This document shows positions 9,230-59,976 of a stretch of DNA of 64,000 bases, piece after piece (the stretch's first letter is position 1; every line of letters starts with the position of its first letter). The stretch spans positions 1 through 64,000 of the forward strand of contig JAQUVM010000001.1 of NCBI GenBank assembly GCA_028693355.1, in the 5' to 3' direction. Made by a program: the position numbers and the translations under genes. The notes under the pieces were generated by a model. The model did not search any database, was not told the DNA's origin, and saw nothing but the letters and a program-made list of their open reading frames with translations. This DNA comes from Burkholderiales bacterium (GTDB lineage: Bacteria > Pseudomonadota > Gammaproteobacteria > Burkholderiales > UBA11063).

Positions 9230-11275
9230 ATGTCATTAGTAGGAAATAGCTTAGTTATTGAGTTTTTAAGTGAAGAATTACCACCAATTAACTTGTTAGA
9301 AAATATTGGAACTCCATTTACTGAATCAATTAAATCTCAGCTACAAGGATATTTCACAGATTCAAGCAAAGTTACTCCATTTATTACACCTCGTCGCTTT
9401 GGCTGCGTAATAAATAATATAAATCATGAACAAAAAGATCAAGAAGTTACACGTAAAGGTCCCGCAGTTGCTACTGGATTAAAAGATGGAAACCCAACAC
9501 CTGCATTATTGGGGTTTGCAAAATCATGTGGCACAGAATGGCAAAACCTTATACAAAATGATGATGGATATTTTTATTTTACAAGCACAGTAAAAGGCAA
9601 ATCCCTAGAGTCTGTGATTGAAAATACCATAAATACAGCATTGAAAAAAGTACATATTGCAAAATCTATGCGTTGGGGTGATACAGATTACCAATTTGTG
9701 CGTCCATTACATAATCTAATTGTAATGCTAAATGACAAAGTTATTCCATGTAATACACTAGGATTAAACTCACAAGGCTCTACTATCGGACATCGTTTCA
9801 TGAGTCATGGTGAGGTTAAAATAAGTAATGCCCAATCATATCTAGATGAAATTCATAATCTAGGTAAGGTAGTTGTAGAGTTTAATGCCAGAAAAGAAAT
9901 AATTTCTAAAACATTAGATAATAAAGCAGCTGAATTAGGTCTAAAAATTAGCCATATGGATGGGCTATTGGAAGAAGTCGTAGCATTGGTGGAATGGCCT
10001 GAGATATTAGTTGGCAGCTTTGATAGCAAATATCTAAAAGTACCACAAGAGTGCTTAATCTTATCAATGGCAAAAAACCAGAAGTATTTTGCATTAGTTG
10101 ATAATAACAATAAATTAAGCAATAAATTTCTTTTTGTATCTAATCTTATTTCAAAAGATCCTGAAGTAATTATTAATGGTAATCAAAAAGTTTTATCAGC
10201 TCGGTTAGCTGATGCTGAGTTCTTCTATAACTTTGATAAACGTACAAAGCTATCTGATTTTGTACCACGGTTGGCAAATGTAGTTTACCATAATAAATTA
10301 GGTAATCAATTAGAACGTATTGAGCGCCTACAAAAAATTGCTGCAACCATAGCACCATTACTAAATGTAGATAGTGAAGTAGCAAAAAAAGCAGCATACC
10401 TATTAAAAGCTGATTTAGTAACCGAAATGGTTGGGGAGTTTCCAGAGCTGCAAGGTATAATGGGTAATTACTATGCGCTTGCTAGTGGAGAAACTAAAGA
10501 AGTTGCTAATGCAATAGAAAAACATTACTACCCACGCTTTAGTGGCGATGAGCTACCCGATTCAGCATTAGCTACTGTTGTATCTTTAGCCGACAAATTA
10601 GAAACATTAACAGGAATTTGGGGTATTGGTCTAATTCCTACAGGTGATAAAGATCCATATGCATTACGACGTAGCGCATTAGGAATAGTTCGTATACTAT
10701 TAGAAAATCATCTAAACCTTAAAACACTATTAGAAAATGCATTTAATTCTTTCGATGGTAAAAATTTATCAGCAAATACAGTGTCTGAGCTAGAACAGTT
10801 TATTGTCCAACGCCTAGCAAACTATCTATCCGCAACTCTTGGCTACTCTAATAAAGTAGTAAGCGCAGTTCTTGCTAATCATAGTTTAGAAATATCTCAA
10901 GCGGAAAGTATTTGTAAAGAATTTAGCGCTTGGGCAAATGATACAGATAATAATGGTTTATTTGAAGCAAACAAACGTATTGAAAATATCTTGAAAAAGA
11001 ATGAAGCTGAAGTTGATATCAATATTACAATAAATCCAGAGTTATTTATTTCATATGAAACAACTTTATTTAATTTAGCTGCATCTATTAACAACGATAG
11101 TAGTTTAGATTTATATTTGCAACAGCTAAGTAAATTATCTGTACCTTTAACTGAGTTTTTTGCTAATGTTATGGTTATGGATGATGATGTAATTATTAGA
11201 AAAAATCGCTTAAAATTATTATCTGATTTATATGCAAAATTTAATATATATGGTAAGCTATCAGAATTAGCTTAA
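9230..11275 (+). CDS. glyS: Glycyl-tRNA synthetase, beta subunit
   Basis: The product is the large subunit of the alpha2-beta2 glycyl-tRNA synthetase, which charges tRNA-Gly. The N-terminus LVIEFLSEELPP is characteristic, and TPRRFG, MRWGDTDYQFVRPLHNLIV and GDKDPYALRR are further signatures. The C-terminal part is the tRNA-binding (DALR-like) region. Its 681 residues match the family. A ribosome-binding site (AAAGG) precedes the ATG. The alpha subunit gene glyQ is not next to it: the upstream neighbour is divergent rppH, so glyQ must lie elsewhere. gmhB follows after repeat copy E. Confidence 0.96.
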   Translation: MSLVGNSLVIEFLSEELPPINLLENIGTPFTESIKSQLQGYFTDSSKVTPFITPRRFGCVINNINHEQKDQEVTRKGPAVATGLKDGNPTPALLGFAKSCGTEWQNLIQNDDGYFYFTSTVKGKSLESVIENTINTALKKVHIAKSMRWGDTDYQFVRPLHNLIVMLNDKVIPCNTLGLNSQGSTIGHRFMSHGEVKISNAQSYLDEIHNLGKVVVEFNARKEIISKTLDNKAAELGLKISHMDGLLEEVVALVEWPEILVGSFDSKYLKVPQECLILSMAKNQKYFALVDNNNKLSNKFLFVSNLISKDPEVIINGNQKVLSARLADAEFFYNFDKRTKLSDFVPRLANVVYHNKLGNQLERIERLQKIAATIAPLLNVDSEVAKKAAYLLKADLVTEMVGEFPELQGIMGNYYALASGETKEVANAIEKHYYPRFSGDELPDSALATVVSLADKLETLTGIWGIGLIPTGDKDPYALRRSALGIVRILLENHLNLKTLLENAFNSFDGKNLSANTVSELEQFIVQRLANYLSATLGYSNKVVSAVLANHSLEISQAESICKEFSAWANDTDNNGLFEANKRIENILKKNEAEVDINITINPELFISYETTLFNLAASINNDSSLDLYLQQLSKLSVPLTEFFANVMVMDDDVIIRKNRLKLLSDLYAKFNIYGKLSELA

Positions 11276-34209: not shown

Positions 34210-34839
34210 GTGATTAATATTTCTGGTAAAAATAATAAAATTATAATTATTTCAGAGTCTGGTGAAAAATCTTTGCTAAACTCTGAAATACCAAATCTAA
34301 ATCTAGAAATAAAAGGCAATAATAACTACTTAGTAATAGAATTGCCAATCAACTTCCTTGATGGAACAACTATAAAAATCTTGAATGATAATACTCATGT
34401 AGAAATTGCTTCATCTCCATATATGAAATTAATGCTTCGTTGTTCTTATGGTGATGGACAAATTTGTAAAATTCAGAAAAATACCGTAATGGTTGATGTT
34501 GCAATTTATCTTGAAGGCAAAACAGAGCTCTATATTGGTCAAGATTGTTTATTTTCATATGGCCCTATTTATATTAGACCTTGTGACGGCCATAGCATTA
34601 TAGATTTACATACAAATGATCTTTTAAATAAACCAAACGCGCCAATTACTATCGGAGATCACTGTTGGATTAGTTGCGGATGTCAGATTATTCGAGGTAC
34701 TTCGTTACCTAATAACACTATCGTTGGCGCAGGCGCAATTGTAAATAAAAAATTTACTGAGGAATATACAGTTATTGCGGGAATACCCGCAAAAATAATA
34801 AATCGTAATAGTAAAATGGGATATAAAAAACCCTTATAA
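34210..34839 (+). CDS. Hexapeptide-repeat acetyltransferase
   Basis: The 209-residue product ends in a left-handed beta-helix acyltransferase region: ITIGDHCWISCGCQIIRGTS, then LPNNTIVGAGAIVNKKF and IAGIPAKIINRN, typical of WbbJ- and NodL-like acetyltransferases. The first 120 residues are beta-rich (EIKGNNNYLVIELPINF) and could be an extra solenoid. Such enzymes often acetylate sugars of LPS or capsule. The frame reaches a TTG at 34195 inside sdaA; the GTG at 34210, with TTAGG before it, is the better start. It follows sdaA closely but is unrelated in function. The acceptor is unknown. Confidence 0.78.
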   Translation: MINISGKNNKIIIISESGEKSLLNSEIPNLNLEIKGNNNYLVIELPINFLDGTTIKILNDNTHVEIASSPYMKLMLRCSYGDGQICKIQKNTVMVDVAIYLEGKTELYIGQDCLFSYGPIYIRPCDGHSIIDLHTNDLLNKPNAPITIGDHCWISCGCQIIRGTSLPNNTIVGAGAIVNKKFTEEYTVIAGIPAKIINRNSKMGYKKPL

Positions 34840-34933: not shown

Positions 34934-34949
34934 TGTTTCACATGAAACG
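34934..34949. promoter_or_regulatory. parS: parS-like ParB site, imperfect
   Basis: TGTTTCACATGAAACG differs from the parS consensus TGTTTCACGTGAAACA at two positions. It lies between two convergent genes about 6 kb left of the predicted oriC. Confidence 0.6.
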
Positions 34950-35002
34950 TAGTTAATATATAGCAATTTTTTAAATCTCAAATACATATGCTATCTACGT
35001 TA

Positions 35003-36244
35003 TTACAGCAATTTTTGTTTAATTACAGAGAAAACTTTTTCAGAGGAACCCTGATATTTACTAATAAATTCATTACAGTTACTTTTTAATTTATTATACT
35101 CTTCTACATTGCAAGCTAAATCATTAACACATTGCTTTAATTCACTAATTTTTATTTGTCTAGCACACCCTATTTGTGTACTATTTTTAGCTACATCAGC
35201 AAAATTAAACATAGATTGTCCAAATATAACAGGTATATTCATAAAAATTGCTTCAATAGGGTTCTGCCCTCCACAATCAGTAAAACTCCCCCCTATTACA
35301 GTAAGATAGCTAATAGCGTAGTATGCAAGCATTTCACCCATACTGTCCCCAATAACTACTTTAGTGGTATTTTCTATTTGTTGATTGCTTGAGCGTTTTT
35401 GATAAGATATATTTTTAGATTTTAATAAGTTTTCTAAAACAGAAAACCTCTCTGGGTGGCGTGGAATAATTAAATAACAAACATCTAAATCTAAATCTAT
35501 ATTGTTTAAGATTAGCTCTTCTTCACCATCACGAGTCGAAGCAAAAGTAATTACTCGTCTACTCCCAAACAATTTTTTAAATAATTCAACAAGCTGAACT
35601 GTATCATTATTTACAACTAGATCAAATTTGGTATTACCTATAATACTTAAATCACCCAGATAAGATAATTTTTTGAAATTATTAGCAGTATTTTCATCCT
35701 GACACAATATACCAGAGAATTTATTTATAATAGGCATTAAAGCCCATTTAAAGCGATTATATCCTCTATAAGATCTATCAGATAACCTAGCATTAGCAAG
35801 ATATAAAGGAACTCTATAATCAGCAGCAAAATGAATTAGATTAGGCCAAATTTCAGTTTCCATTATAATACCAATTTTAGGCTTAAAAGTTTTATAAAAA
35901 CTCTTTACACAAAAACTAATATCATAAGGTACATAGTGAACAATCGCCTGAGGATAGAGTGATTTGGCTGTATCACGCCCTGTTGGCGTCATATTAGTAA
36001 TCAAAGTTTGATAATTGGGTAAATTCGTTTCAATTAGTTCAACTAGTTTTTGCATAGCTCGAGTTTCACCAACTGATACCGAATGTAACCAAATGATTGG
36101 CTTAGTACTTGGATTATGTAATTTACACCCAAATCTTTCATGCCAATTTTCTAAATATGCTGAGTTTTTCTTGCCGCGTTTTTTTAGATATAACGGTATT
36201 AATGGTGCTATAACATAAGTTAGTAAGGAATAAAATTTACGCAT
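35003..36244 (-). CDS. waaA: 3-deoxy-D-manno-octulosonic acid (KDO) transferase
   Basis: WaaA attaches KDO from CMP-KDO to lipid A precursor at the inner face of the inner membrane. The N-terminal anchor is followed by WHERFG, then WLHSVSVGETRA with the catalytic Glu, and METEIWPNLI. The C-terminal GT-B domain shows ASTRDGEEELIL, IPRHPERF and GGSFTDCGGQNPIEAI. At 413 residues it is of normal size. Its start overlaps the end of a small helical-protein gene by 8 bp. With gmhB and waaC it covers inner-core LPS assembly. Confidence 0.95.
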   Translation of the reverse strand: MRKFYSLLTYVIAPLIPLYLKKRGKKNSAYLENWHERFGCKLHNPSTKPIIWLHSVSVGETRAMQKLVELIETNLPNYQTLITNMTPTGRDTAKSLYPQAIVHYVPYDISFCVKSFYKTFKPKIGIIMETEIWPNLIHFAADYRVPLYLANARLSDRSYRGYNRFKWALMPIINKFSGILCQDENTANNFKKLSYLGDLSIIGNTKFDLVVNNDTVQLVELFKKLFGSRRVITFASTRDGEEELILNNIDLDLDVCYLIIPRHPERFSVLENLLKSKNISYQKRSSNQQIENTTKVVIGDSMGEMLAYYAISYLTVIGGSFTDCGGQNPIEAIFMNIPVIFGQSMFNFADVAKNSTQIGCARQIKISELKQCVNDLACNVEEYNKLKSNCNEFISKYQGSSEKVFSVIKQKLL

Positions 36245-36524
36245 CTTTTTTTGTTTCAGGCTTTTCTATATCATCAGATTTTGTTTTCTGCATAGATTTA
36301 TTAATCATATCTGTAGAGCTGCTCATTACATCCATAAATTTATTCATCATAGTAAATGGATTTACATCTTTTAGCATTTTTGCTGAATTTGCCATTGTCT
36401 TCATAGTTTCTAGCTGAACTTTATATTGTTCTAAATAAACTATCATATTACTAGCAAAACTAATTTGTTTATCACACTCTTCAATACATTTTTCAGGAGA
36501 TGTGAATATTTCATTATTTATCAT
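36237..36524 (-). CDS. Small helical protein, unknown (possibly phasin-like)
   Basis: The 95-residue product is almost all helix, with Met-, Lys- and Asp-rich stretches (ASNMIVYLEQYKVQLETMKT, MMNKFMDVMSSSTDMINKSM) and a charged C-terminal tail. It has no signal peptide and one Cys pair near the start. The ATG has the ribosome-binding site AGGAACACATC, and its end overlaps waaA by 8 bp, so it is a real coupled gene. The amphipathic pattern recalls phasins, which coat polyhydroxybutyrate granules, and phaB occurs in this window, but the match is weak and I do not assign a function. Confidence 0.65.
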   Translation of the reverse strand: MINNEIFTSPEKCIEECDKQISFASNMIVYLEQYKVQLETMKTMANSAKMLKDVNPFTMMNKFMDVMSSSTDMINKSMQKTKSDDIEKPETKKDA

Positions 36525-36553
36525 GATGTGTTCCTAATTATATTTGTACAAAT

Positions 36554-37153
36554 TTAACCAACTATAAAAATCTGACCGGTTTGTAAACCTTCTACGCTTT
36601 TACTATAAGCCATTGCCGCATCAGCAGCTAAAACAGGTTTAAACCCTCTAAAAAATGGCGCATAGCTACCCAAAGCTTCGGTAATAACTGTAGGGCTAAT
36701 TATATTTATTCTTAATTCTTTTGGTAACTCAATTGCCGCATGCTTAACAAATCCATCTAGAGCGCCATTTACCATAGCTGCACTACTACCAAGCTCAATA
36801 GGTTCACGATTTAAAATACCACTTGTAAGCGTAAACGAACCTTTATTATTAAGATATTTTATACCTTCCAAAACTACATTCACTTGCCCCATTAGTTTAT
36901 TTTGTAAACCAGTTTGATATAAATCATCTGTCATTTCTTCTAATCTACCAAAATGAACTTTTCCAGATGATATAATTACAGCATCAATATTACCTACTGT
37001 TTGATACATCTTTTTAATTGATTCTTTATCTGTTATATCAACTTTAACATCACCACTAGTTCTTCCAGCAATGATAATTTCATGACGAGCAGATAACTCA
37101 TTTACAATTGCTTTACCAATAGTACCAGATCCACCTATTAATAGTATTTTCAT
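36554..37153 (-). CDS. Short-chain dehydrogenase/reductase
   Basis: The 199-residue protein is a compact SDR. The cofactor motif is LIGGSGTIGKAIVNEL at residues 5-20, and AGRTSGDVKVDITD suggests an NADP-type second strand. VIISSGKVHFG replaces the usual NNAG. The usual Tyr-x-x-x-Lys is not present in standard form near SSAAMVNGALDGFVKHAAIE, so the catalytic residues differ from classical SDRs; this matches the short YbbO-like or DUF-type SDRs annotated simply as short-chain dehydrogenases. The gene lies 29 bp upstream of the small helical-protein gene and is probably co-transcribed with it and waaA. Substrate unknown. Confidence 0.8.
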   Translation of the reverse strand: MKILLIGGSGTIGKAIVNELSARHEIIIAGRTSGDVKVDITDKESIKKMYQTVGNIDAVIISSGKVHFGRLEEMTDDLYQTGLQNKLMGQVNVVLEGIKYLNNKGSFTLTSGILNREPIELGSSAAMVNGALDGFVKHAAIELPKELRINIISPTVITEALGSYAPFFRGFKPVLAADAAMAYSKSVEGLQTGQIFIVG

Positions 37154-37330
37154 AGTTTTTATTCCATATAACTAACTTTAAATTAAAAGTAAATTAGCTA
37201 TAAAATTTATAATTTTTAACTTTGTCAATTATAGCATATAGTATTTATAAAAATTTCTCTCGTTAATAATTAATAAACAAGTTTTTTATAAATATCTTTA
37301 TGATAAATAATTAAAACTATACTTTCTGGT

Positions 37331-38301
37331 TTATATATTATTAATAATATTTTTTGCTAATGCATATAATAGAGATATTGATTGATCTGCGAACATAAAT
37401 AATTTTACTTGTATTTTTTTGTTTATTTGCCACCCTCTAAGCCAAGCTCTAAAATGGATACTATAATTATGACCTTTTTTTACTAATTCTTTAGTTTTAA
37501 ATTTGCTTATATAACTTATATATGAGGCTAAACTATATTCTGTTAGTTTATTTTTTGTAAAATTAAACCCTAAAAAATCAAAGCCTGCGATTAGTTTACC
37601 AGTCTTGGTTTTACCACTGTGAGTAACTAATTTTAGTTTATTCAGGATTATATACATTTTGCGAATTAAATCTTTTAACTTTCTTCAGCTATTTGTAAAA
37701 AATACATAATCATCCATAAATCTAATGTAGTTAGTAGTCACCATAAGCTTATCAATTGGCAATAAAAAAACACCAGCTAAAAGTGGTGATAGTGGGCTAC
37801 CAAGAGGAATACCGAGTCGTATAATATTGACATATCCATCTAGGCTTTCTGTTCTACGAATTGTTTGATAAATTAAGCTAAGTAATGCTTTATCGTCTAT
37901 TAAATTAGCTAGCATATTACATAATATATCATGATTGATGCTACTATAAAAACTAGCAATATCTGTTTTAAAAAAGAAGGTATTATTTTGTACAAATTTA
38001 CGAGAAGAAGTGATGGCGGCTTGAATGCCGCCATTACCAGATAAATGCGTACATTGTTTAGATAGTTTTGGCTTTAAATATTCGGTTAACACTAGAGAAA
38101 TAGCTTTTATTACTATCACATCTTCGGCATTCCAAACAGCTCTTGAACCATCATCACAATTAGTACGGTAACGTAACATTGGAGAGAAGCGATAGCTTCC
38201 ATCCAATGTTTCCGAATTAGAGGCTTTATTGAATCCCAGCGCTCACGGAGTAACCAGATATCACTACTATAGCTAACTTCAGATTGAACTGTACAATGCA
38301 A
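37331..38301 (-). pseudogene. Broken reverse transcriptase
   Basis: Reverse-transcriptase motifs are clear: GSYRFSPMLRY, FFFKTDIASFYSSINHD (motif A), IPLGSPLSPLLAGVF and the catalytic RFMDDYVFF. After FFTNS an in-frame TGA (37685-37687) stops the frame, which then continues RKLKDLIRKMYIILNKLKL and AGFDFLGFNF to 37331. The TGA lies where relatives have Trp, so it is probably a TGG to TGA change. The N-terminus is also out of frame: SSDIWLLRERWDSIKPLI is read in another frame up to about 38220. No maturase X or endonuclease domain follows, so it is not a group II intron enzyme. Motif 4 ends in SP, not the SQ of canonical DGR enzymes. It lies downstream of the DUF1554 lipoprotein gene in the same direction. 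Confidence 0.85.
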
Positions 38302-38354
38302 TGAGCGACAACACCTATAAATAATAGGTTAGGAGCGAGTTAAGTAGTACAGTT
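38287..38354. repeat. Nested inverted repeat upstream of the reverse transcriptase
   Basis: The outer arms AACTGTAC (38287-38294) and GTACAGTT (38347-38354) are perfect complements. An inner stem ACCTAT (38313-38318) pairs with ATAGGT (38324-38329). GAGCGA occurs on both sides between them. Confidence 0.6.
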
Positions 38355-38670
38355 TAAAAATGAGTTGAGCTATATCGGGGAAGTTTTCTCGTGATGTGCA
38401 ACACCATAAAAAAGCTTTCTCTAATATTTCGTTACTAGCTACTTGAGTTAAGAGCACTGAACTTTTCAATTTATATTATGCTCCAATGAATTAGACTAGT
38501 TGAGATTAAACGCATCTAAAATAGTACAAAGTACAAATTTTATTTTGATGCGTCTAACCAGATACGATTCAAATTCTATTGACAAATTAACTCTTGCTAA
38601 CTAATACTATATACTATTAGTTAAGTTGAAATTGCAAATTTTTGGTTTGCTCGTATATTCATCAATTTAA
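38302..38670. other. Structured intergenic region between the DUF1554 gene and the reverse transcriptase
   Basis: No ORF of note. I compared it by eye with the 3' end of the DUF1554 gene and found no obvious template repeat. It contains two sizeable inverted repeats (38287-38354 and 38506-38557), each with GTAC near the arms or loop. It is also where a retroelement RNA would be expected. Confidence 0.45.
38506..38557. repeat. Inverted repeat with a GTAC-rich loop
   Basis: TTAAACGCATCTAAAAT (38506-38522) pairs with ATTTTGATGCGTCTAA (38542-38557), with two mismatches. The 19-bp loop contains GTACAAAGTAC, which resembles the core of the dispersed intergenic repeat family. Confidence 0.6.
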
Positions 38671-40044
38671 TTATTGAGATACGCATACCAATCTTAAGGC
38701 AGTAAGAACAGGGGTGTCCTGACGGTCGCACGTTGATAAGTCAGCCATGATTGCGTTTTGGCCTAACACCACGGCTCCGGCCGCCACGGCAATGCCCACT
38801 GAGGTCATATTAAATGTTCCCGCGTCGCCCCAATTATTGCAATCCCCGAAACTAGCGTTATCCCAATTACCATCTAAACCAGTCCAGTACCCTAGTGTAT
38901 TTCCATACGCACTCCAGTTATATCCGTTTCCATAACCCCAAACATTGCTTAAGGGGAATGCAAAAGTAGCATCTGGTTTAGCGGTGCCTATCGTGAGGTT
39001 ACTAATAATATCAATGTAGGTCGTATCTGGGTCGAAGACCCAATCAATCGGTGAAGGTTTTGCGGAGCGGCTTGTACCGGCTATCATTGCTTTCCATGTT
39101 AGCGATCTTGCTAAATCGTTAGGTACCCACCCTGCGCTTTCAGCATCATGTTGACATATTGCATCTGCCTTAGCTATACCATTAGCGCCAGTAGGTTGCC
39201 AAACGGAATTAGCTACAACCATCGCACCATTTGGTGATGATTGTGACACGAAGACCCATTTATTAGCTGGCGGAGGTGCTGGCTGTGGGTTGACGGTAAT
39301 AGCTTTGTTTGCACTTGTATACCCATTTGCACTTGCTACTAGTGTTGTATTACCAGATTCATTTCCAGCAGTAACAGTAACATTGCATGTATTTGAAGCA
39401 GTGCTAAGATTACATGTTGATGCTGATAATGTTATTTTGCTATTATCTGCTACTACTGTTACAGGTAAACTATTTACCCCTGTACTATTACTAAGGGTAA
39501 TTGTTGCTTGTTCTGTGCTTTCAACAGTTAACTGGTTTTCTACAGATATAGACAATGTACCTGCTCTAACTTCTGGAATACTATTACTTGTTGTAACTTG
39601 CATAGTGCCCGGTAGAGATACTAGTGTACTTCCACTTATGGAGTATGCTACAGAATAAGTATATGAGCTCTCAGGTGCATTAGAACCATTAATAACTACA
39701 GCACATGAAGGAGTAGATGCAGTAATAATACATGGAGTAGGATTAAATGATGCTTGTGGAGCAGGTGGTGCAGGATTAGCAAAAGTTAATGTAATAGGTG
39801 ATTCTGAAGTGCTCATACCTGGAATTGCAATTGAACCCACAGGTGCATCTGATCTTGGATTAACTGAGAAATTTCCAGCGCTTAACTGAACTGCATGACC
39901 GTTAATAGTACCGATAGTGTCAGTAGTATTATTTCCGCCATTACTGCTACCACCGCTACATGCGCTAATTGCTAGAGGAACTACAACTAAAGCGCTGGTA
40001 ATGAGTGCGCCATTAGATATAAGTTTTGAGAATTTTTGATGCAT
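38671..40044 (-). CDS. Chimeric lipoprotein: shared N-terminal modules plus DUF1554 domain
   Basis: A lipoprotein signal (VPLAISAC) leads into two modules shared with the lipoproteins at 20504 and 21954: about residues 40-165, and an Ig-like module at about 165-260 (GTLSISVENQL ... STCNLSTASNTCNVTV ... ANGYTSANKAITV). From about residue 268 comes a DUF1554-like domain: FVSQSSPNGAMV, GIAKADAICQHDAESAGW, WKAMIAGTSRSA, GYWTGLDGNWDNASFGDCNN and a final LRLVCVSQ. DUF1554 is best known in Leptospira lipoproteins. The DNA for this domain (about 38690-39240) is visibly richer in G+C than the rest of the gene, which suggests separate acquisition. A broken reverse transcriptase lies downstream. Confidence 0.82.
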   Translation of the reverse strand: MHQKFSKLISNGALITSALVVVPLAISACSGGSSNGGNNTTDTIGTINGHAVQLSAGNFSVNPRSDAPVGSIAIPGMSTSESPITLTFANPAPPAPQASFNPTPCIITASTPSCAVVINGSNAPESSYTYSVAYSISGSTLVSLPGTMQVTTSNSIPEVRAGTLSISVENQLTVESTEQATITLSNSTGVNSLPVTVVADNSKITLSASTCNLSTASNTCNVTVTAGNESGNTTLVASANGYTSANKAITVNPQPAPPPANKWVFVSQSSPNGAMVVANSVWQPTGANGIAKADAICQHDAESAGWVPNDLARSLTWKAMIAGTSRSAKPSPIDWVFDPDTTYIDIISNLTIGTAKPDATFAFPLSNVWGYGNGYNWSAYGNTLGYWTGLDGNWDNASFGDCNNWGDAGTFNMTSVGIAVAAGAVVLGQNAIMADLSTCDRQDTPVLTALRLVCVSQ

Positions 40045-40266
40045 AAATACAGTCCTATTTAAAAAATTTACTTATGAAATAATCTAGGCGTAAATGTATC
40101 ATATAAAAAATAAGCACCATGTCTGCTTTTAGCCTACAAAGCGTGTTTAATTCTTATAAATAAAGGATTTTATTTTTAAAAACTAGATATCTGTGTTGTA
40201 TAAATGCTAATTTGGGATATTTTTATTTAATATTTATATAAATATTTTAAAAAATTCTTTAACTAT

Positions 40267-41226
40267 TTAATTGAGAACTATACTTTTTATAGTATTAATA
40301 ACATCACTAACAAGCACTTCCATTCCTTTACCTCCAAGATTTTTAGCTATATCAGATTCTAATATACCTACATACCCTGGATCACTCGCCAAATATATAG
40401 CTATAGTTGGTGTATGTGTTAAATTAGCAAAATGAGTAAATCCTGTATCTACACCTATTACTACATCAGATTTAACTATTAGATCCGCTAGTTTAGTAAA
40501 AGATAACTTTTCAATAAGAGTAATTCGTTCGCTATTTAAATTACTAATTAAACTTATAGCAAATTCATATTCAGCTTGATTACTATAAGTTATAACTATT
40601 TGTTTATTGCTATTATTAATCACCCAATTAGACAATTCAGTCCAATTTTCTAAAGACCATTTTTTATTTTCTTTAGACGTACCATGTAAAAATAATATAT
40701 AACCATTTACAAAATTTATTCCACAATCTTCAGATTTATATTGAAAATCAATTTTACGTAAATCATGCTTTAGATTAAATATTTTGGCTATAAGACCACG
40801 TAATCTTGGTACTGCAATATTATTTTGATTTACATTATAAGTAAAATCATAAAATAAACTAGCTATAGGCTCACGAGCCGACTTTCTATCCAATCCGAAC
40901 ACATAACCATCAAAAAGGTATTTGGATAGCATAGCGGACTTAATAAGACCCTGTGTATCGATTATATAGTCGTATTTGGTATTAGATAATGTCTTTTTAA
41001 AATTAGCTAGTTTATTAAACCAAGTAAATTTATTTTTTTTCCATTTTCTAAGTGGAATAGGAATTACATTATCAATAAGTGGAGATAAATTAGCAACTCC
41101 AGTAAAATTTTCATCAACTAACCAATCAATAGTTACATTGGGATTGGTTTTTTTAATATCAGGTAATACAGTGAATGTGTGAAAAATATCACCAATTGAC
41201 GACAATCTTATTATTAATATACGCAC
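40267..41226 (-). CDS. waaC: LPS heptosyltransferase I
   Basis: WaaC transfers the first heptose to KDO2-lipid A from ADP-heptose. The GT9-family N-terminus ILIIRLSSIGDIFHTFTVLP is characteristic. YDYIIDTQGLIKSA, FLHGTSKENKKWSLENW (nucleotide-sugar binding) and VIGVDTGFTHFANLTHTPTI are all present. At 319 residues it has the usual length. Its start lies at the left edge of the predicted oriC and it is transcribed away from it. With gmhB and waaA it completes a core-LPS set scattered over the window. Confidence 0.93.
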   Translation of the reverse strand: MRILIIRLSSIGDIFHTFTVLPDIKKTNPNVTIDWLVDENFTGVANLSPLIDNVIPIPLRKWKKNKFTWFNKLANFKKTLSNTKYDYIIDTQGLIKSAMLSKYLFDGYVFGLDRKSAREPIASLFYDFTYNVNQNNIAVPRLRGLIAKIFNLKHDLRKIDFQYKSEDCGINFVNGYILFLHGTSKENKKWSLENWTELSNWVINNSNKQIVITYSNQAEYEFAISLISNLNSERITLIEKLSFTKLADLIVKSDVVIGVDTGFTHFANLTHTPTIAIYLASDPGYVGILESDIAKNLGGKGMEVLVSDVINTIKSIVLN

Positions 41227-41235
41227 AAATATTCC

Positions 41236-41414
41236 TTATCCACAGTTTATTGTTAATAACTTCATTTTATCTTGTTATGAATTATAAGTTATCCACAGAT
41301 TTTATATTTTTCATTTTTTTATTTACAATCATTTTTATAAAAATACCTACATTTTATACAAAGTAAATACTTATATAACTATCTATTATATTTATCTAAT
41401 TTAAGTTATCCACA
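41236..41414 (+). promoter_or_regulatory. Left group of three DnaA boxes
   Basis: Perfect TTATCCACA at 41236-41244, 41289-41297 and 41406-41414, all in the same orientation. Confidence 0.88.
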
Positions 41415-41586
41415 TAAAAACTAGTATATAATAACAATAATAAAATATATTTTATATAAATAATTAATATATTGCAAATAAATTAAAAGATAAAACTTAT
41501 TTTTTAAAAATGAGTATTTAAAAATATTTTAGAACATTTTTTTATCTTGTATAAATATATACTATTAATTAGTTAATAAAGTTTAG

Positions 41587-41625
41587 TTATCCACAGGTTT
41601 ATAAAAAGATTAAAACTTATCCACA
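41587..41625 (+). promoter_or_regulatory. Right group of two DnaA boxes
   Basis: Perfect TTATCCACA at 41587-41595 and 41617-41625, 30 bp apart (nearly three helical turns) and in the same orientation as the left group. Confidence 0.88.
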
Positions 41626-41807
41626 AATAGTCAACTGTAAATAGTCTAGAAATATACAAAGTAATTCAATGATTAATACTTTGATTTATATATTTTTTTT
41701 TAGATATAAACAGAAAAAATGTAAGCTAATAATAACAATAAATTATATGATATTATATATATAATAAATAAATGTTAAAATTACGTTCTGCAAAAAGGAG
41801 TTTATAA

Positions 41808-42581
41808 ATGGCAAAAGAAGGTAAATATACCGTTGAAAAGATTACATATTTAAAACAATGGACAGATCATTTATTTAGTTTTAAGATTACTAGAGATTCT
41901 GCTTATAAATTTATTCCAGGTCAATTTGCACGTTTAGGTGTAAAAAAAGAAGATGATACTATTGTTTGGAGACCTTACTCTATAGTATCTGCTGATTATG
42001 ATGAAGAATTAGAGTTTTATTCGATAGTAGTTCCAGATGGCGAATTCACACAAAAGCTTAAAGACCTTAAATGTGGTGATGATATATATATAGATAAAAC
42101 AAATTATGGATTATTAACTACCGATAGATTTGAAAATGGTAAAGATTTATGGTTTTTATCAACTGGTACTGGGTTAGCTCCATTTATTTCTATAATGTAT
42201 GATTTCTCTATTTGGGAACAATATGATAAAGTAATATTAGTGCACGGTGTACGTGAAGAGAACGAACTAACTTATCAAGAAGAAATAAATTCTTTCTTTA
42301 CTCATGAATATTATGGTGAACTAGTAAAAGATAAACTACAATATATAAAAGTTGTTTCACGTGAAACAACAGGTGATTTAAATGGAAGAATTACAACTTT
42401 AATAGAAAATGGTGAATTAGAAAAATTTGCTAATACTCCTATTACTATTGAAAGTAGTCGTATAATGATTTGTGGTAATCCACAAATGGTAGATGATACA
42501 CGTAAAATATTAGCTGCACGTGGGTTAACTATATCTAAAAGAGCTAATCCTGGTAATATGGCTGTTGAAAATCTATGGTAA
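41808..42581 (+). CDS. fpr: Ferredoxin/flavodoxin--NADP+ reductase
   Basis: Fpr is an FAD enzyme that moves electrons between NADPH and ferredoxin or flavodoxin. The FAD-binding motif is WRPYSIVSA, the NADP-binding region starts with FLSTGTGLAPFISIMYD, and MICGNPQMVDDTRKIL follows. The end GNMAVENLW has the C-terminal aromatic residue typical of bacterial Fpr. It has 257 residues. A strong ribosome-binding site (AAAAGGAG) precedes the ATG. It is the first gene right of the predicted oriC and carries a perfect parS site in its coding sequence. Confidence 0.94.
   Translation: MAKEGKYTVEKITYLKQWTDHLFSFKITRDSAYKFIPGQFARLGVKKEDDTIVWRPYSIVSADYDEELEFYSIVVPDGEFTQKLKDLKCGDDIYIDKTNYGLLTTDRFENGKDLWFLSTGTGLAPFISIMYDFSIWEQYDKVILVHGVREENELTYQEEINSFFTHEYYGELVKDKLQYIKVVSRETTGDLNGRITTLIENGELEKFANTPITIESSRIMICGNPQMVDDTRKILAARGLTISKRANPGNMAVENLW
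42353..42368. promoter_or_regulatory. parS: parS centromere site, perfect
   Basis: TGTTTCACGTGAAACA is a perfect 16-bp palindrome and an exact match to the chromosomal parS consensus bound by ParB. It lies inside fpr, about 0.7 kb right of the predicted oriC. Confidence 0.93.
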
Positions 42582-42642
42582 TAATATAAATTAAACCTTT
42601 AGGGCTAGTATATTGTAAAATATATCTTTAACATACGTATGA

Positions 42643-42694
42643 ACATAATTAATGTATTTTAAAAATAAATAATTTTATTTACATTAGATTATGT
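42643..42694 (+). terminator. Probable terminator after fpr
   Basis: ACATAATTAATGTA (42643-42656) pairs with TACATTAGATTATGT (42680-42694) with a one-base bulge. TTTTATTTT follows. Confidence 0.65.
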
Positions 42695-42716
42695 TTTTAT
42701 TTTAAAAGGTTTTTAT

Positions 42717-43388
42717 ATGTCAAATATTAAATTTTCAATTTCAGTATTGTTAGGATTTATTATTTTATCTGGTAGTTTAGTGTATATTAATAAAAATAAA
42801 GATACATTAGTTCAAGCTAAAGGTGTAGCAGAAGTTAAAGTTAAATCAGATTTAGCTACTTGGCAAATATCACTTAATCAATCTGGATATAATTTAGCTT
42901 CAGCATATAATCAAATGGAGAGTGATCAAAGTAATGTAATTGCAATATTAAAAGATCAAGGTATTCAAGAAAGTGATATTCAATCTAATAATATTTCTAT
43001 TTCAAATATGTTGATTGATAATAAAACTCAGTATCAAATATATAATACTATTACTGTTTCTAGTAAAAATGTTGATTCAATATATAAAATTAATCAAAAT
43101 CAAAAGCTTTTTATAGATAAAGGTATTTTTATTTCTGGTAGTTATGTAAATTATTATTTTACTGCAATTAATAATATTAAAGAACCTCTTTTAAAAGATT
43201 CTGTTCTTAATACTAAAATATCAGCTGGTAAAATAGCTGGAAATCTTAACAAAGAAATTGCTGAAGTTAGAAACATTAATCAAGGTGTTATCTCAGTTAA
43301 TTCAGCAGATGGTAGTCAATACAATGATATTAATTCATTATATAAAACAGTTAGAGTTGTAACAACTGCGACTTACTTAATGAAATAA
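42717..43388 (+). CDS. SIMPL-domain (DUF541) protein
   Basis: The 223-residue protein has an N-terminal signal anchor (ISVLLGFIILSGSLVYI) and a SIMPL/DUF541 domain: VQAKGVAEVKVKSDLATWQI, then ILKDQGIQESDIQSNNISIS and a C-terminal TVRVVTTATYLM. Bacterial relatives are periplasmic or outer-membrane-linked proteins of uncertain role, linked to oxidative stress and to ring-shaped oligomers (BP26). The ATG follows AAAAGG. It sits between fpr and rsmB with its own hairpin terminator, so it is probably a single-gene unit. Confidence 0.85.
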   Translation: MSNIKFSISVLLGFIILSGSLVYINKNKDTLVQAKGVAEVKVKSDLATWQISLNQSGYNLASAYNQMESDQSNVIAILKDQGIQESDIQSNNISISNMLIDNKTQYQIYNTITVSSKNVDSIYKINQNQKLFIDKGIFISGSYVNYYFTAINNIKEPLLKDSVLNTKISAGKIAGNLNKEIAEVRNINQGVISVNSADGSQYNDINSLYKTVRVVTTATYLMK

Positions 43389-43419
43389 AATATAAATAAT
43401 TATTAAAAATTTTAATAAT

Positions 43420-43448
43420 AATACCTCTACAAATTAAGTAGGGGTATT
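43420..43448 (+). terminator. Hairpin after the SIMPL gene
   Basis: AATACCTCTAC (43420-43430) pairs with GTAGGGGTATT (43438-43448) with one G-T pair. A parS-like site begins three bases later. Confidence 0.6.
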
Positions 43449-43450
43449 GT

Positions 43451-43466
43451 TGTTTCATGTGGAACA
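43451..43466. promoter_or_regulatory. parS: parS-like ParB site, near-perfect
   Basis: TGTTTCATGTGGAACA, read on the other strand, is TGTTCCACATGAAACA, one base from the TGTTCCACGTGAAACA form of parS. It lies in the rsmB leader just before the start codon. Confidence 0.72.
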
Positions 43467-43468
43467 TT

Positions 43469-44695
43469 ATGAGCGAATATAAAATAATAAAAAGAATTAT
43501 AGATTTAGTTTATTATGAAAATAAAAATTTAAATGATTTAATTAATCAGTATAAAGAAGATGAAAATATAGTAAAAATAAGATATATTGTTTATGATTTA
43601 CTACGTTATAGTACATCTATTGATTATATATTGAGTAAACTAGTAAGAAATATTGATTATGATGTAATGGGTATTCTTAGAATAGGTATATATGAGCTTT
43701 GGTTAAGTAAAAAACCTGAATATGCAATTATTAATGATTTAGTTAATTTAACTAAAGAATTTGATGAAAAAAAGAAATCATTTGTAAATGCAGTATTGCG
43801 TAGTTTTCAAAGAAGTAAAGAAAAATTTATAAAAGATATAGATAATGAATACTCGTATAAATATAATATTCCATCATGGTTATTAAACTATTTAAAAAAA
43901 GAATATAAAAATAATTATCTAGAAATAATAAAAAGTTTTATGTATAAACCATCTTTTGGTTTAAGAGTTAATAGTAAAAAGAACTCATATAATGAATATT
44001 TGAAATTATTAATAGAAAATAATATTGAATATAAAGAAATTGATAGCAAAATAGTTTTAGATAAAGCTATTAATGTTAGTGGAATACCGGGCTTTTATGA
44101 GGGCTTGGTGAGTGTCCAAGATGTAGCGGCACAGTATATGCTAGATATATTAAAAAAACATAATATTGAAATAAAAAATGCTCTAGATATATGTAGTGCA
44201 CCAGGTGGCAAAACTTGCCAGTTATTAGAAAATTATGATTGTAATTTAACGTCTGTAGATATAGATGAAAATCGTTTAAAAAAAGTAAAGCAAAATTTAG
44301 ACAGATTAGAACTTAATTGCAATACTATACTAGGCGATGCTAATAATAAACGTTGGTGGAATGGTGACAAGTATGATTTTATTATTGCTGATGTACCTTG
44401 TTCAGCTCTTGGAACTATTAAAAGAAATCCAGATATAAAAATAACACGACGTTTAGAGGAAATTAGTAATTTTGTACAAACGCAAAGAAGTATTATTAAT
44501 AATATTTGGGAATTATTAAATTTAAATTGTTACATGATATATATAACTTGTTCTATTATGAAAGAAGAAAATCAATTAAATGTAGAATGGTTATCTAATA
44601 ATTTAAATGGATTTAAGATTATAGATGAGCTACAAATTTACCCATCTGAAAATAACGATGGTTTGTATTATGCTTTAATTAAAAAAGTAGGATGA
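43469..44695 (+). CDS. rsmB: 16S rRNA (cytosine967-C5)-methyltransferase
   Basis: RsmB methylates C967 of 16S rRNA. The N-terminal NusB-like domain (about residues 1-130; IVYDLLRYSTSIDYIL, FVNAVLRSF) precedes the methyltransferase domain: the SAM motif is ALDICSAPGGKTCQLLE, and the two catalytic cysteines are in ADVPCSALGTIKRNPD and IYITCSIMKEEN. The frame opens at 43457, inside the parS-like site; the ATG at 43469 (MSEYKIIKRI) is the likely start. Codon use is extremely AT-rich even for this genome. Its stop overlaps the first bases of ntrY, so the two are coupled, as in other betaproteobacteria. Confidence 0.93.
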   Translation: MSEYKIIKRIIDLVYYENKNLNDLINQYKEDENIVKIRYIVYDLLRYSTSIDYILSKLVRNIDYDVMGILRIGIYELWLSKKPEYAIINDLVNLTKEFDEKKKSFVNAVLRSFQRSKEKFIKDIDNEYSYKYNIPSWLLNYLKKEYKNNYLEIIKSFMYKPSFGLRVNSKKNSYNEYLKLLIENNIEYKEIDSKIVLDKAINVSGIPGFYEGLVSVQDVAAQYMLDILKKHNIEIKNALDICSAPGGKTCQLLENYDCNLTSVDIDENRLKKVKQNLDRLELNCNTILGDANNKRWWNGDKYDFIIADVPCSALGTIKRNPDIKITRRLEEISNFVQTQRSIINNIWELLNLNCYMIYITCSIMKEENQLNVEWLSNNLNGFKIIDELQIYPSENNDGLYYALIKKVG

Positions 44696-44697
44696 TT

Positions 44698-46824
44698 ATG
44701 AAAAAAATAAATATAATATTTTTTACAGTAATTTTAACATTAATAATGTTTAGTTATTTTTATGTAACTATATATTCAAAATACGATGTTATGCTTTATT
44801 TGAATGATTATAGAAAAATTATTCAATTAAATAAAGTAATAGAAGCAATTTTATTATTTATTATTTTTGGGTTCGTGTATAGATTATTTTTTAGAAAAAA
44901 TAATGCCTTTGGATCTATTCTTACAAAAAAACTATTTATACTATTATCAATAGTGATACTAATACCATCATTAATAAATATAAAAATAGCTAATTACTTT
45001 ATTGATAATACGGTTAATAGATTATTTAATCCTCAAATAGAACAACTTTTAGATAATAGCTTTAATATAGCAGAAGAAAGTATAAAATATTTCTCTAAAG
45101 AATTACGTAAGAAGTCAGTAATTGCAGGTGAATATTTAAAGCTAACTGATAAAGATGAAAGTAAATCAGAAATAGCCAAAGTTAGAAAAATGCTTGATGT
45201 TGATGGGATTAGTATTTATAACAATAAAGGAAATTTATTAGTTCAAGATAACGATAAGAAATATTTAAACGATGAGTTAGAAGATTTTATTGTAGCCAAA
45301 ATAAAAAAAGTTGGTTATTTTTATGAAATAAATAAAAGCAAAGGTGGAGATTATATATTTAATTATTATCAATATTATAATGATGGAAAAATAGTTGCTT
45401 TAAGTCAAATTGCTCCAGAATTTATAAAAATTGATAATAATAATATATTGCATAATAAAGAACTTTATCAAGGATTATTAAATAATAAAGATAATTTAAA
45501 AGATGTATACACGAGTACTCTGATTATAAGTGTTTTATTATCTATAACTATTGCTGTGTTATTAACGTTATTCTTTGCACAATTTTTGATAAAACGTATT
45601 TCTAGTTTAATTGAAAATATAGAGTCTATAAAAAAAGGTTCTTATAGTAATCAAAATATATTTAAAGGTAATGATGAATTATCTCAATTAATTCACTCTT
45701 TTAATGATATGGGACATAGCTTGGAAGAATCTCAAAAAATAGAGAAAAAGCAAAAATTAGAATTAACGGAATACAAAAATTATCTTGAAAATATTATAAA
45801 TAATCTAAGCCTTAGTGTGATAGTTTATGATGATAAATATGTTATAAAAAATGTTAATTTAATAACACAAGATATTTTAAATATAGAAATAAATGATATA
45901 TTAAATATAAATATTGATAAATGGGATAATTCATATAAACATTTAGAAGGTTTAATTAAACTAATTAAAACAAAACTAGAATATGAATTAAATGAATGGG
46001 AAGAAAATATAGTATTTAGATATAAACATTATATAAAAAATTTATATGTAAAAACTATTCGTTATGAAATAAATGGCAGTATTGAATATATTACATTAAT
46101 AAGTGATGTAACTAATCTAATTATAGCTAGGCAAAATCAAGCTTGGGCTGATATTGCAAAACGATTAGCTCATGAAATAAAAAACCCATTAACGCCAATA
46201 GTTCTATCAGCTGAACGTATTCAAATGAAATTAGTTCCGAAGTTGATAGAAAAAGATCAGGAATTTTTAAATAGATTAGTTAATCAAATTATTTTACAAG
46301 TTGATGATTTAAAAGAGCTTGTTAATAAGTTTAGAGATTTTGCTAACATAAGTAAACCGCATTTAGTTAGACTTAATTTGGTAGAGTTTTTTAATCAATT
46401 TATGATACTTTATGAAAATATGAGCTTTATAAAACTTATCCATAATTTACCAGAAAATAAGAGTTTTGTTTTAGGTGATCAAAGTTTATTAAGACAAGTT
46501 TTTCATAACTTAGTAAAAAATTCTATAGAAAGTGTTGAAAATAATGAAAATAAAGATGTAAAAATTACCTTAACATGTACAGAAAATGTTATGAATATTT
46601 TGGTTAGTGATAATGGGCATGGTTTTAGTGAAAACATTATGAATAACCTGTTTGAGCCTTATCAGACAACGAAAGGAGTTAAAGGAAGTGGCCTAGGCAT
46701 GGCAATAGTTAAGAAAATTATTGATGAGCATCATGGAAAAATTGAAGTATTTAATGACGATGGAGCTAATATTGTAGTAAAATTACCACTAACCGTTTCC
46801 AATGTAGAATTTGATAGGTTATAA
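44698..46824 (+). CDS. ntrY: NtrY-type membrane sensor histidine kinase
   Basis: NtrY phosphorylates NtrX. The N-terminus has membrane segments (about residues 4-25, 45-65 and 80-100), an extracytoplasmic stretch, and another segment near 280-300. Then come a HAMP domain (ISSLIENIESIKKGSYS ... DELSQLIHSFNDMG), a PAS-like region, a HisKA motif RLAHEIKNPLTPIVLS with the phosphorylated His, and an ATPase domain with VKNSIES, VSDNGHGFS and GSGLGMAIVKKIIDEH. The ATG at 44698 has TAGG at a suitable distance; the one at 44692 does not. At about 709 residues it is complete. In Neisseria this system affects nitrogen and respiratory genes; the signal is unknown here. Confidence 0.92.
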   Translation: MKKINIIFFTVILTLIMFSYFYVTIYSKYDVMLYLNDYRKIIQLNKVIEAILLFIIFGFVYRLFFRKNNAFGSILTKKLFILLSIVILIPSLINIKIANYFIDNTVNRLFNPQIEQLLDNSFNIAEESIKYFSKELRKKSVIAGEYLKLTDKDESKSEIAKVRKMLDVDGISIYNNKGNLLVQDNDKKYLNDELEDFIVAKIKKVGYFYEINKSKGGDYIFNYYQYYNDGKIVALSQIAPEFIKIDNNNILHNKELYQGLLNNKDNLKDVYTSTLIISVLLSITIAVLLTLFFAQFLIKRISSLIENIESIKKGSYSNQNIFKGNDELSQLIHSFNDMGHSLEESQKIEKKQKLELTEYKNYLENIINNLSLSVIVYDDKYVIKNVNLITQDILNIEINDILNINIDKWDNSYKHLEGLIKLIKTKLEYELNEWEENIVFRYKHYIKNLYVKTIRYEINGSIEYITLISDVTNLIIARQNQAWADIAKRLAHEIKNPLTPIVLSAERIQMKLVPKLIEKDQEFLNRLVNQIILQVDDLKELVNKFRDFANISKPHLVRLNLVEFFNQFMILYENMSFIKLIHNLPENKSFVLGDQSLLRQVFHNLVKNSIESVENNENKDVKITLTCTENVMNILVSDNGHGFSENIMNNLFEPYQTTKGVKGSGLGMAIVKKIIDEHHGKIEVFNDDGANIVVKLPLTVSNVEFDRL

Positions 46825-46891
46825 TTAATAAATTAATAAAAATTGATAAGGCATTATACTGTCTTATCAACGTATAAATTTGGAGGACAAA

Positions 46892-47473
46892 TTGAGTAAA
46901 ACAATTTTAATAGTTGATGATGAATTAGGAATTCGCGAGCTATTGAGAGAATGTCTGGAAGATGAAGGATATTCTGTTAAGTTAGCGGAAAATGCACTAG
47001 AGGCAGATAAATTAGTAAAAGATAATAGATTTGATTTAATTTTGATGGATGTTTGGTTACCTGATATGGATGGAGTTTCTTTATTTAAGAGATTTTTATC
47101 TAACGGTGTAGTTACACCTGTTATCATGATGTCAGGTCATGCTTCAATTACAAGTGCGTTAGAAGCAATTAGAATTGGTGCAAGAGATTTCTTAGAAAAA
47201 CCACTTTCTTTAAGTAAGTTGCTTCCATTAGTGGATAAGCATATATTAAAGGAAATCGGTGGTAATGATGGATTATTAGAAGATATTTCTGAAATCATTA
47301 CCTTAGATTTAAATAATCCTTTAAAGGGTATTAAAGAAAATCTAGAAAGAAGATATTTCCTATATCATATGAATAAATACCGTGGTAATATTACTAAGAT
47401 AGCAGAAGTATCTGGAGTGGATAGAGCTCATTTATACCGTAAGTTTAAAACGCTTGGTATAAAAATAAAATAA
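46892..47473 (+). CDS. ntrX: NtrX-type response regulator lacking the AAA+ domain
   Basis: The 193-residue protein has a receiver domain (ILIVDDELGIRELLRE, phosphoacceptor Asp53 in LILMDVWLPDMDG, and the conserved Lys in DFLEKPLSL). After a short linker comes a Fis-type helix-turn-helix: HMNKYRGNITKIAEVSGVDR then AHLYRKFKTLGI. Typical NtrX has about 450 residues with a sigma-54-activating AAA+ domain between these parts; here it is absent. The start is a TTG at 46892 with GGAGG five bases before it (an earlier TTG at 46880 would put the GGAGG inside the gene). It pairs with ntrY upstream and ends with a strong terminator. Confidence 0.9.
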   Translation: MSKTILIVDDELGIRELLRECLEDEGYSVKLAENALEADKLVKDNRFDLILMDVWLPDMDGVSLFKRFLSNGVVTPVIMMSGHASITSALEAIRIGARDFLEKPLSLSKLLPLVDKHILKEIGGNDGLLEDISEIITLDLNNPLKGIKENLERRYFLYHMNKYRGNITKIAEVSGVDRAHLYRKFKTLGIKIK

Positions 47474-57759: not shown

Positions 57760-59976
57760 ATGAGTTTAATAAATAAAGTAGTATTAGAAGATATTTTAAA
57801 TAAAGTTATATCATCAGAAAATAGCGGTGAGATATGCAATAATGATGCTATAAGAGTAAAACTTACAACAGATACCAAATACTATAATATTATTTTTAAT
57901 AATATTCATTTTACTGATATGGGTTTGAGTGATTTATTATCTGGTATTAGCTATAACATTATAGCTAAATTAGACTTTGTAAATTCATACCGTTCGATTA
58001 TTATTAATGAAATTAATGGTAATAAGTTAGACACTGATAAATCCTTAAAAATTCAGGCTAGTTATTGTCATCATTTACAATTAAATTGCCGTAATTTATC
58101 TTTAGAAGAATTAAACTTTATAATTGAGATAATTGATAATCATTTCAATAAAAATATTCAAGATAAATTGTTAGCAAATGTTTATAATTTATTGGTAAAG
58201 CAATTCTCTGGGGCGGATTTCACTTGGTCACATAATGATGAGTCGCGCTGGAGTATTAACTCCCCAAAAGGCGTTAAAATTACATATTTTGCAAATCCTC
58301 AAAAGGGTATTTGCTATTTAAATTTACAAGGTATTTATATTGCTGAAGACTACAAAGAGTTTAGTAAAGAATTACAAAGTTTAAATATATTTTCATCAGA
58401 AATTATAGAAATAAGTTCCGCATATAATATTCATAATTCAGATATTTCACATATTATTACATTAAAGTTTTTTGTTGAAAACGAGTGGGAAGAAATTAGC
58501 ATTAATTGGAATAACTCGGGTTTTATCAGCTTAATTTTATCCAACTTGGTAGATGATCTTTCAAATAATGTTAAAGCCTTAATTACGTATCTTTTATCAA
58601 AACACATTAAAACACATCAAAAAATAACTAAACCATTACCGCTTAAGTTTGCATTAATTTGTGAACTTGGTTTTCCTAGTACATATTTAGCAAGTATTAT
58701 AGATGATAAATTAGTTAGTTATGGATATGATTCTAACGATATAGTTACCCATAATAATGTTTCATATGAAGCAATTATTGATAAAACAGAGATTTTTTGT
58801 AATTTATCATCGAATGATGATATTTATAAATTACAAAAACTATATGGTGATAAACTTATTTTGATCGGGTGTGGATTAACTCGCGGGCTTAGCTCTATTT
58901 GTAAGACTAGATTAATTCAAGGATTTAATTCTAGGATAAAAAATAGTCAAGATAAGCTTACGCAATCACAATATGAAAAAATTTCGCAAGAGTTAGCTAG
59001 TTTACAAGGTGAAAATGAAAGTAAACTAGGTGAATTTGAAATGTCATTAAATAAATGTTTTCATAAAGCTGATTTTTTTATTAATTATGATAGCGACCAA
59101 GATGTTATGCTTAGCTGCAAAAAAATGCATAATTCAATCGGGAGGTTTATAGATTTATTATTTAATCATAAATTTATAACACCAACTAAAGATGAGTTTG
59201 CCATGTATATGGCATTTACTGCGGCTATGCGTTCTGCAGACTTATCTCGTCAAGTGGGGGCTGTAATCACGGCTTCATCTGGTGATATTATTGCAACAGG
59301 TGCAAATGATATTCCTCGGGCTGGTGGTGGTCTTTATTATTCAGAAGTTGATATAAATAATGCTATTTATGATAAGCCTCTTGGGCGTGATTATATGCGT
59401 GGTTTTGATTCAAATGCAGTTGAGAAATTAAAGATTTTTGATAATATTTATCAAGTATTAAAAGATAAGTTTAAAGACGGAGTTGATGATAGTGATATTA
59501 GGGAGCATTTATTAAAAAGTAAAAATAATGTCCTAAATGATATTACTGAATATGGGCGTGTGGTTCATGCTGAGATGGAAGCTTTGATGGCATGTGCGCG
59601 TAATCAAAGTAGCACTATTGGTGCTAGTTTATACTGTACTACGTATCCATGTCATAACTGTGCAAAACATATTATTGCTGCTGGAATTAAACGAGTATTG
59701 TATATTGAGCCCTATACTAAGAGTAAATCATTACAATTTCACTTTGAAGCAATTAGTAAAGATGCGGTAAACTCAATTGAAAATAAACTTATGTTAGAAT
59801 TTTATGATAGTATAGAAGCATCTGGGAAAGTGATATTTGAGAGATTTATTGGCGTTGGCCCTCGTTTATTCCGTGACTTCTTTTCACGTGATAGTGGTGA
59901 TAAAAAGCTTAAAGATAAATCTGGTTTTGCTTTAAATAATTGGCAACCACAAGTGATTAATTTGTTATGTAAATAG
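57760..59976 (+). CDS. Zinc-dependent deaminase resembling anti-phage dCTP deaminase, with a long N-terminal extension
   Basis: Residues about 480-738 form a cytidine/deoxycytidylate deaminase domain: AMRSADLSRQVGAVI, the catalytic HAE motif (His603, Glu605 in VVHAEMEALM) and the zinc ligands Cys631 and Cys634 in YPCHNCAKHI. Residues about 290-470 resemble the nucleotide-kinase-like domain of the anti-phage dCTP deaminases, but the P-loop position reads CELGFPSTYLAS, without the usual glycines and lysine. The first 285 residues match nothing I know. Such enzymes destroy dCTP during phage infection. The gene follows a region of broken genes and precedes a YbjQ gene. Housekeeping dCMP deaminase is unlikely, as those have about 150 residues. 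Confidence 0.75.
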   Translation: MSLINKVVLEDILNKVISSENSGEICNNDAIRVKLTTDTKYYNIIFNNIHFTDMGLSDLLSGISYNIIAKLDFVNSYRSIIINEINGNKLDTDKSLKIQASYCHHLQLNCRNLSLEELNFIIEIIDNHFNKNIQDKLLANVYNLLVKQFSGADFTWSHNDESRWSINSPKGVKITYFANPQKGICYLNLQGIYIAEDYKEFSKELQSLNIFSSEIIEISSAYNIHNSDISHIITLKFFVENEWEEISINWNNSGFISLILSNLVDDLSNNVKALITYLLSKHIKTHQKITKPLPLKFALICELGFPSTYLASIIDDKLVSYGYDSNDIVTHNNVSYEAIIDKTEIFCNLSSNDDIYKLQKLYGDKLILIGCGLTRGLSSICKTRLIQGFNSRIKNSQDKLTQSQYEKISQELASLQGENESKLGEFEMSLNKCFHKADFFINYDSDQDVMLSCKKMHNSIGRFIDLLFNHKFITPTKDEFAMYMAFTAAMRSADLSRQVGAVITASSGDIIATGANDIPRAGGGLYYSEVDINNAIYDKPLGRDYMRGFDSNAVEKLKIFDNIYQVLKDKFKDGVDDSDIREHLLKSKNNVLNDITEYGRVVHAEMEALMACARNQSSTIGASLYCTTYPCHNCAKHIIAAGIKRVLYIEPYTKSKSLQFHFEAISKDAVNSIENKLMLEFYDSIEASGKVIFERFIGVGPRLFRDFFSRDSGDKKLKDKSGFALNNWQPQVINLLCK

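Follow-up and report, generated by a model that had tools for sequence, protein, structure and literature searches.

Three 16-bp palindromes that flank the predicted replication origin of a bacterium from the order Burkholderiales are very probably parS sites belonging to the chromosomal ParABS system of a species of Aquella, the genus of water bacteria to which we infer the source organism belongs. They lie within a window of 64,000 nucleotides, which is the whole stretch of DNA that was analysed, and are referred to here as site A, the fpr site and site B (Table 1). As judged from their sequence and setting, they are almost certainly genuine parS sites and ordinary in kind; the apparent departures of Aquella from other systems are a par operon uncoupled from the origin and a relaxed centre of the parS motif.

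Table 1. Features of the window that bear on the parS sites and the origin
Feature	Position	Strand	Remarks
Candidate weak parS TATTTCATATGAAACA	11047..11062	none	Inside ORF 9230-11275; 1 mismatch to genus consensus
parS site A TGTTTCACATGAAACG	34934..34949	none	2 mismatches; intergenic, between convergent genes, just 3' of kdtA
kdtA (waaA), Kdo transferase	35003..36244	-	Pfam PF04413; neighbour of site A
GC trough	40001..47000	none	22-25% GC around oriC; conserved in genus
waaC-like heptosyltransferase	40267..41226	-	Pfam PF01075; left of oriC
oriC (predicted), waaC-fpr intergenic gap	41227..41807	none	Five exact DnaA boxes TTATCCACA, skew switch, synteny
fpr-like ferredoxin/flavodoxin-NADP reductase	41808..42581	+	Pfam PF00175/PF00970, conserved synteny; right of oriC
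Perfect parS (fpr site) TGTTTCACGTGAAACA	42353..42368	none	Inside fpr, codons V-S-R-E-T
SIMPL-domain gene	42717..43388	+	Pfam PF04402; between fpr and rsmB
Terminator-like RNA hairpin	43420..43448	+	Directly before site B; fold z = -3.6 for 43420-43475
parS site B TGTTTCATGTGGAACA	43451..43466	none	2 mismatches; between terminator-like hairpin and rsmB start
rsmB	43457..44695	+	Pfam PF01189, NusB; likely start ATG 43469
ntrY sensor kinase	44692..46824	+	Domain match; synteny
ntrX-like response regulator	46880..47473	+	Domain match; synteny
Candidate weak parS TGTTTCATATGAAGCA	58758..58773	none	Inside ORF 57760-59976; 1 mismatch to genus consensus

Identity and rarity of the sites

A search of the whole genome (2,308,498 bp in 169 contigs) for canonical parS with up to two mismatches returned only the sites at 34934, 42353 and 43451, and the reversed motif gave 0 matches in the same search. 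On an order-2 Markov background taken from this genome, 0.59 such sites would be expected over the whole genome and 0.002 within 8.5 kb, against the three seen. A sequence-only reading of the same DNA had already picked out these sites and considered three in 8.5 kb to be far above chance, with which the expectation agrees. Its coordinates were correct for all three, and 42353 is indeed a perfect palindrome within fpr and 34934 a two-base variant; 43451, described there as a one-base variant, in fact has two mismatches to canonical parS. The same reading had named an even spread over the chromosome and a lack of parB as the observations that would speak against parS, and neither was seen, as the genome-wide matches all fall in the window and a parB with parS-type specificity residues is present.

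Site A occupies the gap between a gene ending at 34839 and the convergent kdtA. Site B had been placed at the start region of rsmB, and it does lie directly 5' of that gene and includes its first in-frame ATG (43457), although 43469 is the likelier start codon.

The consensus of the genus is TGTTTCAYRTGAAACA, in which YR is allowed at the centre. Five sites within one mismatch of this consensus occur in the genome and all are inside the 64-kb window (34934, 42353, 43451, 11047 and 58758), where the Markov background gives an expectation of 0.22 per genome and 0.006 per 64 kb. The earlier list of three therefore held real matches throughout and was incomplete, having missed the weaker sites at 11047 and 58758. 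No counterpart of either was recognised among the sites found in genus relatives, and for this reason we regard both as candidates only. The ORF that holds the 58758 candidate encodes a protein of 738 aa whose C-terminal part contains a cytidine-deaminase-type domain (PF00383, MafB19-like).

The predicted replication origin

The position predicted for the origin in the sequence-only reading is borne out by DnaA boxes, a switch in GC skew and synteny. The DnaA boxes start at 41236, 41289, 41406, 41587 and 41617 (span 41236-41625), and GC skew changes sign at the waaC-fpr gap in the window. In the complete genome of A. oligotrophica (G016; 2,820,660 bp) the cumulative skew minimum is at ~160 kb, the opposite switch lies between ~1.44 and 1.56 Mb (sampled skew), and the 150 kb read there contain a single cluster of DnaA boxes (161475-161566), which lies in the waaC-fpr gap orthologous to that of the window. 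This genome has exactly two sites within one mismatch of the genus consensus, at 160434 and 164228, which flank the DnaA-box cluster at the skew minimum. The dnaA-dnaN genes are located away from oriC: the window's genome has them on another contig, and in A. oligotrophica they are at the 208 kb position (~47 kb off).

The low GC content of about 22-26% extends over ~6 kb of mostly coding DNA (waaC, fpr and rsmB), compared with roughly 30-38% 10 kb off, and third-position GC in the trough is 0.08-0.14. Nearly all of the genus members that were examined, L129 among other loci, have a trough at oriC, and G026, from another family, also has one at its DnaA-box cluster.

Conservation across the genus

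Most members of the genus keep the gene order waaC-[oriC]-fpr-rsmB with ntrYX and/or cysS after it. Sites A and B hold their positions across the genus although the flanking sequence differs, and the two lie on opposite sides of oriC. Thirteen genus loci have a site just 3' of kdtA, the exceptions being G009 and the C237 copy of G008. Of the 14 genus loci where fpr and rsmB are consecutive, 12 have a site in the gap between them, and G020 and G017 do not. In the draft of G008 (L175, L185, L186) the rsmB/fpr/kdtA region occurs as two differing copies, probably through bin contamination. Spacing between A and B is about 3.5-4 kb in most relatives; site A is farther from oriC in the window because SDR, reverse-transcriptase and lipoprotein-like genes sit between kdtA and waaC. 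The reverse-transcriptase ORF fragments (37331-38206, PF00078), between the SDR and lipoprotein-like genes, are possibly a broken group II intron. The SIMPL-domain gene was not detected between fpr and rsmB in the relatives compared.

As a point against the parS reading, no site within two mismatches of canonical parS was found in 5 of the 23 genus genomes, and none within one mismatch of the genus consensus in 4 of the 23; such genomes are mostly incomplete drafts, but one of them (G021) is 90% complete.

The perfect fpr site has a narrower distribution: besides this genome (G000) only G006 and G020 have it, and it covers the same codons in all three. The peptide there is VSRET in these three and mostly (I/L/V)TRE(N/D/E/K) in relatives, and since the site came with amino-acid changes it looks like a later gain. 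On this comparison A and B appear to be the ancestral pair of the genus, to which the perfect site was added later in one species group. Conservation by itself is not used here to judge how strong the fpr site is, because 13 of the 759 16-nt windows of fpr are equally invariant in the three species and its invariance by itself is thus weak support.

The central bases of parS

Among the 31 genus sites that match TGTTTCAYRTGAAACA perfectly, the centre is CG in 8, CA/TG in 18 and TA in 5, so that 23 of 31 lack the central CG, against 3 of 75 among the matches listed in the rest of the order (counted by hand). Fisher p for the difference is ~1e-13 among the matches listed, a value that ignores shared ancestry. 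At sites A and B of this genome, too, the centre departs from canonical parS. In Burkholderia cenocepacia, symmetric central changes abolished the binding of ParBc1 to its parS (PMC5450999); this weighs against the parS reading, as the non-CG sites would need a tolerant ParB. The Aquella protein has H at position 162, where Caulobacter ParB and Noc have Q162. This residue was considered as a single cause of the loss of CG and rejected, as H is common to most of the order and so does not explain a genus-specific change. Other differences are seen in the recognition helix, for example N at 175.

The ParABS machinery and its distance from the origin

The window's genome carries rsmG-parA-parB on contig C89, a different contig from that of the parS sites, and also encodes SMC. 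ParA, a deviant Walker A ATPase (ORF 7743-8522 of C89, adjoining parB), contains KGGVGKTT, and ParB contains the CTPase motifs GERRxRA and ENxQR. The Aquella ParB has the specificity residues R173 and G201 of a parS-type HTH, which have been called absolutely conserved in ParB (PMC7383237). The proposal that the palindromes next to oriC are parS is supported by their rarity elsewhere, their conserved positions and this matching ParB.

The par operon is said to lie within the 20% ori domain (PMC7022226), a usual though not strictly defining feature of ParABS; that of A. oligotrophica is outside it, with parB (2309588-2310124) and oriC (~161.4 kb) ~672 kb apart, or 24% of the chromosome. The separation of parB from oriC/parS is at least ~153 kb in G022 and at least ~63 kb in G015, both bounds being set by contig extents. 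In other families of the order rsmG-parA-parB adjoins parS, often with dnaA close by. Of the 27 listed relatives that have parB and parS (up to one mismatch) on one contig, 26 have them 2-5 kb apart, measured to the nearest parS (counted by hand; G032 and G054, with the two on different contigs, were left out). Only G026 departs from this, its parB being ~117 kb from the closest site. Two loci of one family carry parS arrays: thirteen perfect copies in a tandem array of 220-bp units in L227 (8564-11286; G106:C61:134634-137277), and three copies in 389-bp units in L228 (8561-9869), with no parAB in the 20 kb read around either. Our literature search found no paper on parS in Neisseriaceae.

Proposed function and alternative explanations

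The observed sequence, uniqueness, position and conservation of the sites, and the presence of parA, parB and smc, can be set into a scheme of binding, spreading, segregation and SMC loading that follows established ParABS biology. ParB produced from the distant operon would load at the parS sites that flank oriC, in the form of a CTP-dependent clamp, and slide to cover the origin region; newly copied origins would then be drawn apart by ParA, and SMC would probably be loaded at the origin region by ParB.

Site B might in addition do double duty, with ParB bound there, and its spreading, repressing or tuning rsmB and ntrYX, whose transcription the sequence-only reading held that ParB could affect; we consider this role unlikely. 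The placement of site B, with a terminator-like hairpin before it and the start of rsmB after it, here and in several relatives (a similar hairpin precedes it in G016, G002, G006 and G008, as read from their sequences), would permit such an effect, and in Pseudomonas aeruginosa ParB lowered the expression of adjacent genes when parS was set upstream of a test promoter (PMC7022226). However, ParB has been shown to act as a regulator for few species and few genes, according to the same review (PMC7022226). The site is moreover absent from the fpr-rsmB gap in G020 and G017, and where it is present it stands anywhere between 2 and about 100 bp from the start of rsmB, a pattern more in keeping with a centromere than with an operator. 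This suggests that closeness to oriC is what has been conserved. No Rfam family was found in the window, and the idea of a structured RNA in the rsmB leader was rejected.

It is far less probable that the palindromes bind a regulator other than ParB, such as a dimeric repressor of fpr/rsmB. Palindromes are common as operators and site B is in the rsmB leader, but such a regulator would have to account for an exact match to chromosomal parS, for one site within a gene and another in a gap between convergent genes, for their bracketing of oriC in the genus, for the same 16-mer beside parAB across the order and for an encoded ParB with the right specificity residues. Chance can be dismissed for 34934, 42353 and 43451, since even though a low-GC region favours AT-rich words and about 0.6 sites within two mismatches are expected per genome, the 0.002 expected in 8.5 kb, the empty reversed control and the positions conserved in relatives refute it.

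Returning to parS sites of a ParABS system, we tentatively propose, at somewhat less than even chances, that Aquella has kept oriC and parS together with parAB a quarter-chromosome off and that its ParB no longer needs the central CG. The genus would then offer a natural experiment, in that parS remained beside oriC, rather than beside parAB, when the two parted, in agreement with the finding that in P. aeruginosa parS must be near oriC (PMC5098823). It is also a genus where tightly constrained parS bases appear relaxed, and ParB-parS co-evolution could therefore be tested on a cultured species. The uncoupled operon and the relaxed centre, both drawn from sequence comparison only, are what should interest specialists.

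Comparison with known systems

Noc and its binding site (NBS) belong to a related protein family, and the A. oligotrophica ParB matches the Noc model below cut-off; the Noc/NBS reading was rejected on the specificity residues, which are Q173/K179/K184/R201 in Noc as opposed to R173 and G201 in the Aquella ParB. The parSc1 site of B. cenocepacia chromosome 1 (PMC5450999) shares TGTTTCACGTGAAACA as its perfect site, and differs in that symmetric central changes abolished binding there whereas 23 of 31 perfect-consensus Aquella sites have a CA/TG or TA centre. With the chromosomal ParABS systems of Burkholderiales and P. aeruginosa, Aquella shares the type of 16-bp palindrome, the few sites clustered at oriC, a ParB with R173/G201, ParA and SMC. 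It differs from them in that rsmG-parA-parB is far from parS and oriC (~672 kb in A. oligotrophica), dnaA-dnaN is ~47 kb from oriC and most sites are without the central CG.
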